Part shown: positions 26,666 to 31,025 of the stretch, piece by piece
How the letters are laid out: each line of letters begins with the position of its first letter
Position numbering within the stretch: the first letter of the stretch is position 1
Assembly (NCBI RefSeq): GCF_000761485.1
Contig: NZ_JPMX01000002.1
Coordinates: 1 to 44,043 of the forward strand
Direction of reading: 5' to 3'
From: Modestobacter caceresii
GTDB lineage: Bacteria; Actinomycetota; Actinomycetes; Mycobacteriales; Geodermatophilaceae
DNA length: 44,043 nucleotides
Notes under the pieces: model-generated
What the model saw: the letters and a program-made list of their open reading frames with translations, nothing else
Told to the model about the DNA's origin: nothing
Databases searched by the model: none
Position numbers and translations under genes: made by a program

Positions 26666-27781
26666 TCAGGCCTGGGCCGGCCCCGGCGGCAGCTCGGCCA
26701 GCCGCAGCCGCTGGTCGCGCAGCAGCACCCGGTCCAGTGCGTGGCCGACCGGCCGGGCCAGGTCGGTGACGACGGCCCGCACCGGTGCGTCCAGCCTGCG
26801 GGGCTGTCGCCAGCCGACCAGCAGCGCTGCGTCGGAGTGGTGCTGACCGAGCGGCAGGTGGACGGCGAGGACCGGACCCGCACCGGGCAGCTCGAGCAGC
26901 CCCGGGAAGGCCCCGGCCTCCTCCGGGGTCGCGACCGCCACGAGGTGCCGTTCGCGCATCGCCGCCGCCAGTGGGTGGGCGTCGTCCACCCGTAGGCACG
27001 CGACGGGGCCGGTGCCCCGCGGTGCCCTGGACGCCGTCGACCAGACCTGCAGTTCCGGGGCACCGACCTCGGCCACCCCGAGCAGCACGGTCGTGGCGCC
27101 GAGCGGGGACCGGACCAGCCGGTCCACCGTGTGCAACAGCTCGGGGAGCGTCTCCGCCGGCAGCAGCGCGGTGCTGAGCCGGGCGACCACCCGGGCCCGG
27201 TCGGCATCGGCCTCGGCCAGCACGAACGCGGCGCGCGCCGCCTCGGCGGCGCTCTGGGCGGCGCTGTCGTCCCGGACGGCGACCGCGTGCGCCTCCTGCT
27301 CGGCCAGCTCGATCACCCGGAACCGCAGCTGCCGGGAGCTGTCGTCGGCCATCCGGTGCAGCGCCGCGAGCTCGGGCTCGGTCCAGTCCCGGGGGCTGGT
27401 GTCGATGACGCACAGCACGCCGATGGGCTGCCCGTGCACGCCCCACAGCGGCATCCCGGCGTAGGCGACGGCGTCCAGCTCCTGGACGGAGGGGCCGGTG
27501 GCGAACTCGGCGTGCTCCCGGGCGTCGCGCAGCGCGAGCGGGCTGCCGCTGGTGGCCACCCACTTGCTCATCGAGTGGCTCAACGGCATCGAACGGCGGC
27601 TGGCCCACGGCTCGGGCAGCCCGAAGGCGCCCGGGAAGACCTGCCCGGCCTTGCTGACCAGGACCACCAGTGCGCGGGGGGCGCGCAGCGCCTCGGCCGC
27701 CGACCGGGCGAGCCGGTCGAAGGTCGCGTCGGCCCGGGCCGGCAGGACGGCCCAGGTCGGCAGTTGGTACGCAGCGCTCAC
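26666..27781 (-). CDS. Tandem GAF domain protein
   Basis: The product is 371 residues. The first GAF domain (about 20-155) has RALVVLVSKAGQVFPGAFGL, PLSHSMSKWVATSGSPLALR and MPLWGVHGQPIGVLCVIDTS. After a helical linker (about 160-200), a second, more divergent GAF-like domain (about 200-355) has LGATTVLLGVAEV, HLVAVAT and VLAVHLPLG. There is no catalytic, kinase or DNA-binding domain, so it is a stand-alone sensor or adaptor with unknown ligand. It is convergent with the GntR gene and divergent from the EAL gene, sharing a 69-base promoter region with the latter. Confidence 0.82.
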   Translation of the reverse strand: MSAAYQLPTWAVLPARADATFDRLARSAAEALRAPRALVVLVSKAGQVFPGAFGLPEPWASRRSMPLSHSMSKWVATSGSPLALRDAREHAEFATGPSVQELDAVAYAGMPLWGVHGQPIGVLCVIDTSPRDWTEPELAALHRMADDSSRQLRFRVIELAEQEAHAVAVRDDSAAQSAAEAARAAFVLAEADADRARVVARLSTALLPAETLPELLHTVDRLVRSPLGATTVLLGVAEVGAPELQVWSTASRAPRGTGPVACLRVDDAHPLAAAMRERHLVAVATPEEAGAFPGLLELPGAGPVLAVHLPLGQHHSDAALLVGWRQPRRLDAPVRAVVTDLARPVGHALDRVLLRDQRLRLAELPPGPAQA

Positions 27782-27850
27782 CGCGCCCCCTCTCGCCTGC
27801 GGCCTGTCCGGTGACGCCCACCGGTGTGCTCACCCGTCCGGAGCACGACG

Positions 27851-28555
27851 ATGCTGTCAGACTCCAGGGGTCGATGCCCGGCTCCGATGGGGGACGACGT
27901 GGCGCAGTTCGGGGAGCAGCGGACGACCGACATCCGTGCGGTGATCGCGGACCGTGCGGTCCGGAGCGTGTTCCAGCCGATCGTCGAGCTGGACAGCGGA
28001 CGGGTGGTCGCCTACGAGGCGCTCGCCCGCGGCCCGGAGGGCCCGTTCGAGGCGCCGGACGCGCTGTTCGCCGCCGCGCGCGACGCGGGCTGCCTCACCG
28101 AGCTGGACCAGGCGTGCCGGGCCGCCGCACTGCGCGGCGCGGTGGCGCAGGGGTTGCTGGCTCCCTCGACCGTCTTCGTCAACGTCGAGCCCGAGGTCCT
28201 CGACGACGCCCCCGTGGCGGCGCTGTTCGACCCGGAGCTGCCCGTGCCCGGGGACCTGCGGGTGGTCCTGGAGATCACCGAGCGCGCGCTGGCCGCCCGG
28301 CCGGCGGAACTGTTGCGGACCGTCGAGCGGGTGCGGGAGTTCGGCTGGGCGATCGCCCTGGACGACGTCGGTGCCGAGTCCCTCTCGCTGGCCTTCATGC
28401 CGTTGCTGCGGCCCGACGTCGTCAAGCTCGACCTGCGCCTGGTGCAGGAACGTCCGGGCCCGGCCATCGCGGAGATCATGAACGCGGTCAACGCCTACGC
28501 CGAGTCGACCGGGGCGCTCGTGCTCGCCGAGGGCATCGAGAAGGCACGCACCTGA
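27851..28555 (+). pseudogene. EAL domain c-di-GMP phosphodiesterase, 5' part of a frame-split gene
   Basis: This 234-residue frame encodes nearly all of an EAL domain: YEALARGP (EAL motif), FVNVEPEVL, LEITERAL, ALDDVGAES, VVKLDLRLV and LVLAEGIEK, so the metal-binding residues are present. It then meets TGA at 28553-28555 just where family members continue into HLxMARALGA and the LGQG motif. That continuation lies in the next frame (from codon 28543 on), together with DICT and LOV domains. A one-base loss near 28543-28545 explains this. Start candidates: ATG 27851 (GGAG, 7-base spacing), ATG 27887, GTG 27899. Alternatives are a sequencing error, or two polypeptides coupled across TGA-CC-ATG. 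Confidence 0.8.
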
Positions 28556-28557
28556 CC

Positions 28558-29766
28558 ATGGCGCGGGCGCTGGGGGCGACGCTGGGGCAGGGCTGGCTGT
28601 TCGGTCGCCCGGGGCCCGGTGCCGCCTCGGGTGCTCGACCGGGCACGCTCCGGCTGCCCGCCGTCCAGCCCGCCGACCCACGCGGCGAGCTGGTGTCCCC
28701 GTTCGCCTGCCTGCCGGCGCGCGTACCGGTCCGGGAGGCGCCCAAGGCGCTGTTGATCGAGCTCAGCAAGCAACTGGAACGGCAGGCCCTGCGACTGGGG
28801 GAGACCTGCGTGGTCGCCTCGACGTTCCAGGAGGCGCGGCACGTGACGCCGGCGACCCGGCTCCGCTACCGGGACCTGGTCGAGCGGGTCGGGTTCGTCG
28901 CCGCCCTGGGCGAGGACCTGCCGGTGGAGCCGATGCCCGGCCTCCGCGGCGCGGACCTGGCGGCCGGTGACCCGGTGCGCGGCGAGTGGGACGTCGTGGT
29001 GCTCAGCCCGCACTTCAGCGCCGCGCTGCTGGCCCGCGACCTCGGGGACGACGGCCCGGACATGGCGCGCCGGTTCGCCTTCGCCCTCACCTACGAGCGT
29101 GACACGGTGGTGCGGGCCGCCCGGGCGCTGCTCTCCCGGGTGGCGCCGAACACCCTGCGGCGTGCGTCCACGGAGGACGGCGAGGTGCCAGCGGTCCCGG
29201 CCGGCGTGGTCTCGCTGCTCACCGGGCGCTCCGCCGGCGATCCGGGGGAGGCGCTTCTGCACCGGGCGCTGGCCGCGGTCGGCACCGGCGTCACGATCGT
29301 GGACCTGCGGCTGCCCGACCAGCCGCTGGTCTACGTCAACCCCGCGTTCGAGCGGCTGGCCGGCCAGCCCGCCGCCGAGCTGCTGGGCCGCAACTGCCGC
29401 TTCCTGCAGGACCCCGACACCGACCCGGCCGCCGTGGGCCGCATGCGCGCGGCGATCGCGGCCGGTGCCGAGTGCCGGGAGGTCCTGCTCAACCGGCGGG
29501 CCGACGGCAGCACCTGGTGGAACGAGTGCACGCTGACCCCGGTGACGGACGAGACCGGCGCCGTCGTCCAGTACATCGGGATCCAGACCGATGTCACCGA
29601 CCAGGTGGAGACCGAGCGCGCGCTGCTCACCGAGCGGGACCGGGTGCGGCGCTACGCGGCCCGGATCGCCGAGCTGGACCCGCGGGTCGGGGTGCCGCTG
29701 TCCCTCGCACCGCCGGCCGACGGGCCTCAGGCCTCGACGGACTCCCCGGGGGCCAGGCGCGCGTAG
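28558..29766 (+). pseudogene. EAL C-terminus, DICT and LOV domains: 3' part of the frame-split gene
   Basis: From the ATG at 28558 this 402-residue frame has the end of the EAL domain (MARALGATLGQGWLFGRP), a DICT sensory domain (about 47-205: KALLIELSKQLERQALRLGE, VASTFQEARHVTPATRLRY, EWDVVVLSPHFSAALLA) and a PAS domain of LOV type (about 235-345). The LOV signature GRNCRFLQ holds the photoactive Cys (codon 29395-29397, about residue 280), followed by NRRADGSTWWNECTLTPV and YIGIQTDVTDQ, including the flavin-contacting Gln. Joined to the 5' part this makes a blue-light-responsive c-di-GMP phosphodiesterase of about 640 residues. The last 40 bases overlap the convergent MBL gene. Confidence 0.8.
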
Positions 29767-30365
29767 GGCACCGGCTGGCCGGGGCCACGCTCACCGAGCA
29801 ACCCGGCCACGAGACCGAGGCCGGTGTCGTTGAGCAGGCCGTCGTGCACGGCCAGCGCCCGCTCGGCGCGCACCTCGCGCAGGTAGTCGATCAGCTCGCC
29901 GGTCTTGGACCACGGGGCGTGCGCCGGCAGCAGGAGCGTGGGGACGGCGGCCTGCGGCACGGTGAGCGCGTCGCCGGGGTGGAAGACCCGCTCCTCGACG
30001 AGGAACCCGACGTTGCGGACCCGTGGGAGGTCCGGGTGGATCACGGCGTGCCACTCCCCGTGCACGGTGACCCCGAACCCCGCGGCGGTGAACGCGTCGC
30101 CGGCACCGACCACGTGCACCCGCGGGCCCGCGCCGGCCAGCTGCTCGGCCACCGCCGAGTTCGTCCACACCTCCAGCGCCGGGTCGGCGTCCAGCGCCGC
30201 GCGGACCCGGTCGGGCAGGAAGTGGTCGGGGTGCTGGTGGGTGACCAGCAGGGCCGAGGCGCCGTGCCAGGCGTCGTCGGCGGTGAACGCACCCGGGTCG
30301 ACGACCAGCCGTCGGTCGCCGTCGGACAGGACCACACAGGCGTGTCCGTGCTTGGTCAGCTGCAC
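29727..30365 (-). CDS. MBL fold metallo-hydrolase
   Basis: This 212-residue metallo-beta-lactamase-fold protein has the di-metal motif HQHPDH (H43, H45, D47, H48), then the HGEWHAVI region, VFHPGDAL (metal-bridging Asp) and LLLPAHAPWSK (final His). It resembles small cytoplasmic MBL proteins of the UlaG-like group; the substrate is unknown. The GTG at 30365 (MQLTKHGHACV) was chosen because GAGGAG lies 6 bases upstream and the family starts there; the frame is open further 5'. Its 3' end overlaps the LOV-domain frame tail to tail by 40 bases. Confidence 0.9.
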   Translation of the reverse strand: MQLTKHGHACVVLSDGDRRLVVDPGAFTADDAWHGASALLVTHQHPDHFLPDRVRAALDADPALEVWTNSAVAEQLAGAGPRVHVVGAGDAFTAAGFGVTVHGEWHAVIHPDLPRVRNVGFLVEERVFHPGDALTVPQAAVPTLLLPAHAPWSKTGELIDYLREVRAERALAVHDGLLNDTGLGLVAGLLGERGPGQPVPYARLAPGESVEA

Positions 30366-30509
30366 CAGGGTCTCCTCGCAGGCGGTGGGACGTCGCCGTG
30401 CACGCTGCCACGCCGGGTCCACACCTGGGCACCGGGCCGGGTCATCCGATGGGGTGAGCCGGCGGCGGAGCCCCTGCACCGGCAGGCCGGTGCTGCCGAC
30501 GACCCAGGG

Positions 30510-31025
30510 GTGACCACGCAGACGCTGACGTTCGCCGCCGCCCGCAGCCGTGCGCACGGGCCGGCCGCCGCGCTCTGGCACGCCGTGGAGGTGCACCGGG
30601 CCCCCGCCGACCTGGACGGCGCCTGCGAGCTCACCGTCTGCGGCACCCTGGCCCGGGTGACCACCGAGGCGCACTGGCCGGTGTCCGGCGTCGACGTCTG
30701 CTCAGCCTGCACCGCCGCCAGCCAGCGGTCCCACGTGGAACCCGGGCCCCTCCAGGGAGGGGGCCTCGATCCATCAGCGGCCGGTGAAGACCGCCGGTCG
30801 CTTGCCCAGGAACGCCTCGACGGCCTCGCGGTGGTCGGCGGTCGCCCCGAGGTCGGTCTGCAGGCTGGCCTCCAGCGCCAGGGTGTCCTCGAGGCTGTCG
30901 GTGGCCGCCGTCGCCAGCACCGTCTTGACCGCCCGGTAGGCCCGGGTCGGCCCGGCAGCGAGCCGGGTGGCGAGCGCGGTCGCCTCGGCGAGCACGTCCG
31001 CGGCCGGGACGACGCGGTGCACTAG
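30510..31025 (+). CDS. Hypothetical Cys-containing small protein (doubtful, 3' end uncertain)
   Basis: From GTG 30510 the first ~70 residues look protein-like: TQTLTFAAARSRAHGPAAAL, WHAVEVHRAPADLDGACELT, VCGTLARVTTEAHWP, then VDVCSACTAAS with four cysteines that could bind metal. The frame does not stop there; it runs over a parS-like site and 250 bases antisense to the enoyl-CoA hydratase gene before TGA at 31025. The N-terminal part may be a real short gene that has lost its stop, or the whole may be chance in high-GC DNA. If it is not a gene, 30366-30773 is non-coding apart from the parS-like site. I do not recognise the family. Confidence 0.35.
   Translation: MTTQTLTFAAARSRAHGPAAALWHAVEVHRAPADLDGACELTVCGTLARVTTEAHWPVSGVDVCSACTAASQRSHVEPGPLQGGGLDPSAAGEDRRSLAQERLDGLAVVGGRPEVGLQAGLQRQGVLEAVGGRRRQHRLDRPVGPGRPGSEPGGERGRLGEHVRGRDDAVH
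30728..30741. promoter_or_regulatory. parS-like ParB-binding palindrome (site 2, one mismatch)
   Basis: GTCCCACGTGGAAC differs by one base from the perfect palindrome found at 19268 and 41541. It lies 33 bases beyond the enoyl-CoA hydratase stop codon. Confidence 0.6.

Follow-up and report, generated by a model that had tools for sequence, protein, structure and literature searches.

Organisation of the split EAL-DICT-LOV gene

The window analysed here, a stretch of 44,043 nucleotides on contig C2 of Modestobacter caceresii (genome G000; a draft assembly of 139 contigs), carries the domains of an EAL-DICT-LOV protein in two frames of the forward strand. The first frame (27824–28555) begins at either GTG 27824 or the in-frame ATG 27851 and ends EGIEKART-TGA, with the TGA (28553–28555) falling inside the Pfam EAL match (E 9.3e-33; profile positions 6 to 214–217 of 236). 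Judged by what we take to be the catalytic motifs of EAL domains, this frame does not encode a complete domain; it stops after EGIE and has neither the final stretch of the domain nor its QGW motif. In the intact orthologue L002 the EAL match reaches profile position 236 and every motif looked for is present.

ORF reading and Pfam place the remainder in the next frame (28543–29766, forward strand), which reads GTHLTMARALGATLGQGW and encodes the final part of EAL (HLTMARALGATLGQGW), a DICT domain (PF10069; 28741–29040; E 3.3e-9; 37.2 bits against a curated cut-off of 23.8), a LOV-type PAS_9 domain (29311–29601; E 1.5e-19) and a short tail. The LOV motif GxNCRFLQ reads GRNCRFLQ, with the photoactive Cys encoded at 29395–29397; its G, R, N, C, R and Q are invariant in all 19 aligned rows. 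The segments LLN, WWN and IGIQTDV supply the expected Asn, Asn and Gln, which presumably contact the flavin. The preliminary description of this DNA, in which EAL motifs up to EGIEK were assigned to one frame and DICT and LOV to the next, was correct in its coordinates and motifs, and the arrangement is confirmed in the assembly. All domains of the family are therefore present and syntenic, in two frames rather than the one uninterrupted frame that typifies it. A possible re-initiation codon, ATG 28558, lies two bases past the TGA.

Upstream lies a divergent GAF-domain gene (26666–27781, reverse strand), identified by Pfam and neighbour comparison. A convergent gene of metallo-beta-lactamase fold follows (29727–30674, reverse strand; ORF list and neighbour comparison), and it shares 40 bases (29727–29766) with the LOV frame, the two overlapping at their 3' ends on opposite strands; the ORF start of the reverse-strand gene is probably too far upstream. 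The tail of the LOV frame inside this overlap, TDSPGARRA, is conserved in most orthologues.

A one-base frameshift absent from related loci

Comparison with close relatives, proposed as a check in the preliminary description, was carried out with loci L002–L020, of which L015 begins at a contig end and covers part of the aligned stretch; L126 was excluded from the alignments because of a frame mismatch. In a DNA alignment over 27930–28660, each of the 15 relatives has one more base than the window gene at 28540–28546, which bears out a one-base break. A single further gap changes the frame in this alignment, that of a paralogue from the same genome (L021). In 18 of the 19 related loci an open frame runs unbroken from EAL to LOV; the 19th, L015, was not counted among them. 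Over 407 residues the downstream frame shares 95% identity with the closest relative and so is more than a chance reading; as had been argued from its good conservation, the break is recent or artefactual. A frameshift within EAL is in itself a disabling mutation, as expected of a pseudogene.

Orthology was supported by synteny, the GAF gene upstream and the metallo-beta-lactamase-fold gene downstream being found at 13 of 13 loci (L002–L014) and at none of five other loci tested. No GGDEF motif follows LOV in 12 of these 13 orthologues. The exception, L012 (genome G016), is orthologous by its neighbours yet still has GGDEF behind LOV, and this sequence suggests that GGDEF was lost within Modestobacter. 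In a second orthologue, L008 (genome G015), which is in one frame, EGIE reads AGIE; the replacement of this catalytic-motif Glu could represent another loss of phosphodiesterase activity.

Two conserved halves that abut at a break could also be joined into one protein by programmed frameshifting, and slippage had been offered as a way past the stop. By eye, no X XXY YYZ heptamer was seen at GAG AAG GCA, the RNA fold z-score of −0.25 indicated no unusual structure, and the relatives read straight through without a shift; with slippery site, stimulating structure and conserved shift all missing from the site, we rejected this explanation, which we consider highly improbable. Phase variation by simple repeats was likewise rejected, there being no repeat array at the break site.

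A regular architecture of the Geodermatophilaceae

The combination of EAL with DICT and LOV had been described as unusual; the domain assignment stands, the rarity does not. A search with the intact orthologue of the sister genome G019 found matches at E ≤ 1e-60 in 88 of the 112 genomes of the Geodermatophilaceae, the match spanning EAL-DICT only in five of them (G004, G024, G064, G072 and G074). Pfam analysis of representatives returned EAL-DICT-LOV, EAL-DICT-LOV-GGDEF, EAL-DICT and EAL-DICT-GGDEF, and GGDEF is often found behind LOV. Three DICT genes are present in each of G000, G019 and the related genome G014. By these domain matches, a protein combining EAL, DICT and LOV is nothing unusual in the Geodermatophilaceae, which corrects the picture of a single unusual architecture with a single unusual break. 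Beyond the family, Quadrisphaera sp. INWT6 and Cellulomonas aerilata each have EAL, LOV and GGDEF motifs in one frame with a match to DICT-LOV. A literature search on EAL-DICT-LOV found none among the titles and abstract openings listed.

The nearest counterparts of the window gene are proteins of the same motif order from Geodermatophilus saharensis (L085), Blastococcus haudaquaticus (L086), Quadrisphaera sp. (L087) and Cellulomonas aerilata (L088), with 58–64% identity to the DICT-LOV frame; unlike the window gene, these proteins retain a GGDEF motif at the C terminus and have EAL in the same frame. Among solved structures, the best sequence match was PDB 6hmj, a 'Putative PAS/PAC sensor protein' in which LOV is likewise C-terminal (residues 236–360 of 373). 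We take 6hmj to be the PAL receptor, whose effector, unlike that of the window family, is not EAL.

The intact gene product is predicted from its domains to be a soluble EAL c-di-GMP phosphodiesterase controlled by a C-terminal blue-light LOV domain, with DICT between them. By analogy with the families concerned, blue light would bond the Cys of LOV to the flavin, and the signal would pass through DICT and alter c-di-GMP hydrolysis by EAL. A parallel is SL2 of Synechococcus elongatus (LOV, GGDEF, EAL), described in a passage of PMC8846402 as a blue-light phosphodiesterase activated by light, in which LOV with a photoactive Cys also controls EAL within one chain. By comparison with SL2, the window family has EAL first, LOV after it and DICT between, and 12 of 13 orthologues have no GGDEF; the window gene is in addition frameshifted. 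DICT itself is listed among domains without discernible purpose (passage of PMC8846402), and a link of DICT to light has been predicted (passage of PMC8612252). DICT proteins that also contain GGDEF and EAL are described in c-di-GMP and heliorhodopsin contexts in these two sources; unlike the EAL-DICT-LOV proteins described here, the passages concerned mention no LOV fusion and no shown DICT function. The family offers a good system for asking how a LOV domain at the C terminus controls an EAL domain at the N terminus across an intervening DICT.

A second frameshift in the closest paralogue

The closest paralogue in G000 (G000:C62:48352–50077; loci L021 and L037) is an EAL-DICT-LOV-GGDEF gene, 65% identical over DICT-LOV. 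It contains one extra base inside the EAL domain, after DALFAA, and its downstream frame is open through most of EAL, DICT, LOV and GGDEF; its counterparts in G019, G014, G001 and G005 are in one frame. This frameshift is new, having been absent from the preliminary description. The third DICT gene of G000, on contig C91, retains its EAL motifs and encodes EAL, DICT, LOV and GGDEF in a single frame.

The product of the first frame of the window gene would end before the last part of EAL and, without QGW and the domain end, is expected to be inactive or unstable. DICT-LOV might still be made by re-initiation, without enzyme output. With one-base frameshifts arising separately inside the EAL domains of the window gene and the C62 paralogue, the net effect would be loss of the EAL part in two of three DICT genes, with the DICT-LOV (and GGDEF) frames left open.

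Sequencing or assembly error, with the genes of the strain intact, would be consistent with the draft state of the assembly, the local G+C of 76% and the intact relatives. A second one-base frameshift in the closest paralogue makes a lone error less likely, and two errors in two paralogues would have to be supposed. Other domains of the same kinds were scanned. Two of the 21 EAL domains in G000 are broken, both in DICT genes (the window gene and C62), and 19 are unbroken; no row was broken within the domain in G019 (0/23) or G014 (0/22). None of 30 GGDEF rows in G000 is split, one being partial there and likewise in both relatives. The absence of breaks from the other 19 EAL domains and the GGDEF rows argues against error. 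G019 has a broken gene of its own, a short GGDEF gene split between frames that looks degenerate (L207, G019:C1:1068213–1068618).

Frameshifts in the surrounding genome

A nucleotide walk compared about 480 kb of fetched stretches, together with the window, with stretches of G019 (374,798 aligned columns). It was used in place of a first phase test and a tblastn detector, both of which missed the C62 break and whose hits, including C91:8968, proved to be gene edges and not breaks. The sample of 262 G019 ORFs lying at least 90% inside one alignment was picked by codon G+C and includes some spurious ORFs; it was not a blind sample, as the C62 stretch was chosen because the paralogue lies on it, and the walk is blind to breaks near ORF ends. 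Twenty of the 262 ORFs were flagged. Two were clear internal frameshifts, the window gene and the C62 paralogue; a third held a run of N; a fourth was ambiguous (G019 C11 88560, with five mismatches on one side); and 16 were dismissed, eight on viewing the alignment and eight because one side had no third-position excess, several of these eight resting on only 3 to 7 mismatches. That no clear internal frameshift was found in the other 260 ORFs compared counts against error. The reciprocal walk gave 23 raw flags for breaks in G019, one of them lying ahead of EAL in the third DICT gene. These flags and the broken G019 GGDEF gene indicate that breaks are not unique to the EAL-DICT-LOV family.

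Age of the breaks

Substitutions were polarised with three outgroups and counted (nonsynonymous/synonymous) on the G000 branch and on the sister branch. The EAL part of the window gene gave 0/4 on the G000 branch and 3/9 on the sister branch, and DICT-LOV gave 11/18 and 7/9, respectively. For the C62 paralogue, the counts were 5/14 and 8/15 over the main part and 1/1 and 0/2 over the first 48 codons. There was thus no clear nonsynonymous rise on the G000 branch in either gene, such as relaxed selection on a pseudogene would produce; the breaks are then very recent, or errors. The lack of relaxation in both halves would equally be expected of a sequencing error, and it counts in favour of that explanation.

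Split copies across the family

Copies of the EAL-DICT-LOV family were counted by hand among matches at E ≤ 1e-60, and a frame change was found in seven of 122. The other 115 are in one piece, mostly as judged from the match listing, a few being cut by contig ends and some being EAL-DICT only. The split copies comprise the window gene (G000:C2) and the C62 paralogue (G000:C62; L021, L037), both broken in EAL; G108 (L166) and G062:C3 (L206), also broken in EAL; G003 (L164), broken in the EAL-DICT linker; G101 (L165), broken in DICT; and G113 (L167), in which an out-of-frame deletion begins at the end of EAL and takes in DICT.

Two controls were drawn from the same genomes. None of 98 full gyrB rows changes frame (five partial rows excluded), and neither does any of 104 assessable CHAD-CYTH copies, eight of which hold one stop inside the match and were taken as listed (19 partial rows excluded, 12 of them with stops). 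Against both controls together (0/202) the Fisher p was 0.001, or 0.0026 without the window gene and 0.007 without G000; against gyrB alone the values were 0.018, 0.034 and 0.066, respectively.

The ORF walk and the counts for family and controls favour real loss over error, and the presence of split copies in five other genomes also speaks against error. The family count of 7/122 supports real loss while the broken G019 GGDEF gene weighs in the opposite direction, so that together they left our assessment unchanged. We consider it probable that both paralogues of this strain have suffered recent, real loss-of-function mutations, in nature or in culture; sequencing or assembly error is a rather unlikely explanation, if the most serious competitor.

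The positions of the seven breaks are too few for any pattern to be provable. This also bears on whether the split might be useful, with EAL dead, DICT-LOV re-initiated as a stand-alone sensor from the window gene and DICT-LOV-GGDEF as a cyclase from the paralogue, shifting light control from c-di-GMP breakdown towards synthesis. Such an arrangement would fit the ATG two bases after the TGA and the open, conserved downstream frames of both genes, but the Met of ATG 28558 is not conserved in the family, the upstream GAGAAGG is rather far from the ATG, and no pattern among the seven breaks lends it weight. Coupled re-initiation, raised in the preliminary description, does not appear to have evolved here, as several relatives have another residue in place of the Met of HLTM, and we regard a useful split as very doubtful.

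Returning to recent loss of function, if the paired breaks are real, then light-controlled c-di-GMP turnover is being repeatedly lost by these bacteria. Laboratory evolution is known to have produced parallel changes in c-di-GMP circuits (PMC4395868 and PMC9600634). We tentatively suggest, as an idea with somewhat less than even chances, that loss has repeatedly targeted the blue-light control of c-di-GMP breakdown in these actinobacteria, in a manner resembling that parallel evolution: two G000 paralogues were independently broken in EAL with their light-sensor (and cyclase) frames open, and split copies occur in five other species.

Outside the Geodermatophilaceae, the EAL-DICT match in Paractinoplanes polyasparticus (L095) continues beyond the end of the open frame, and by its sequence this is possibly another broken copy.
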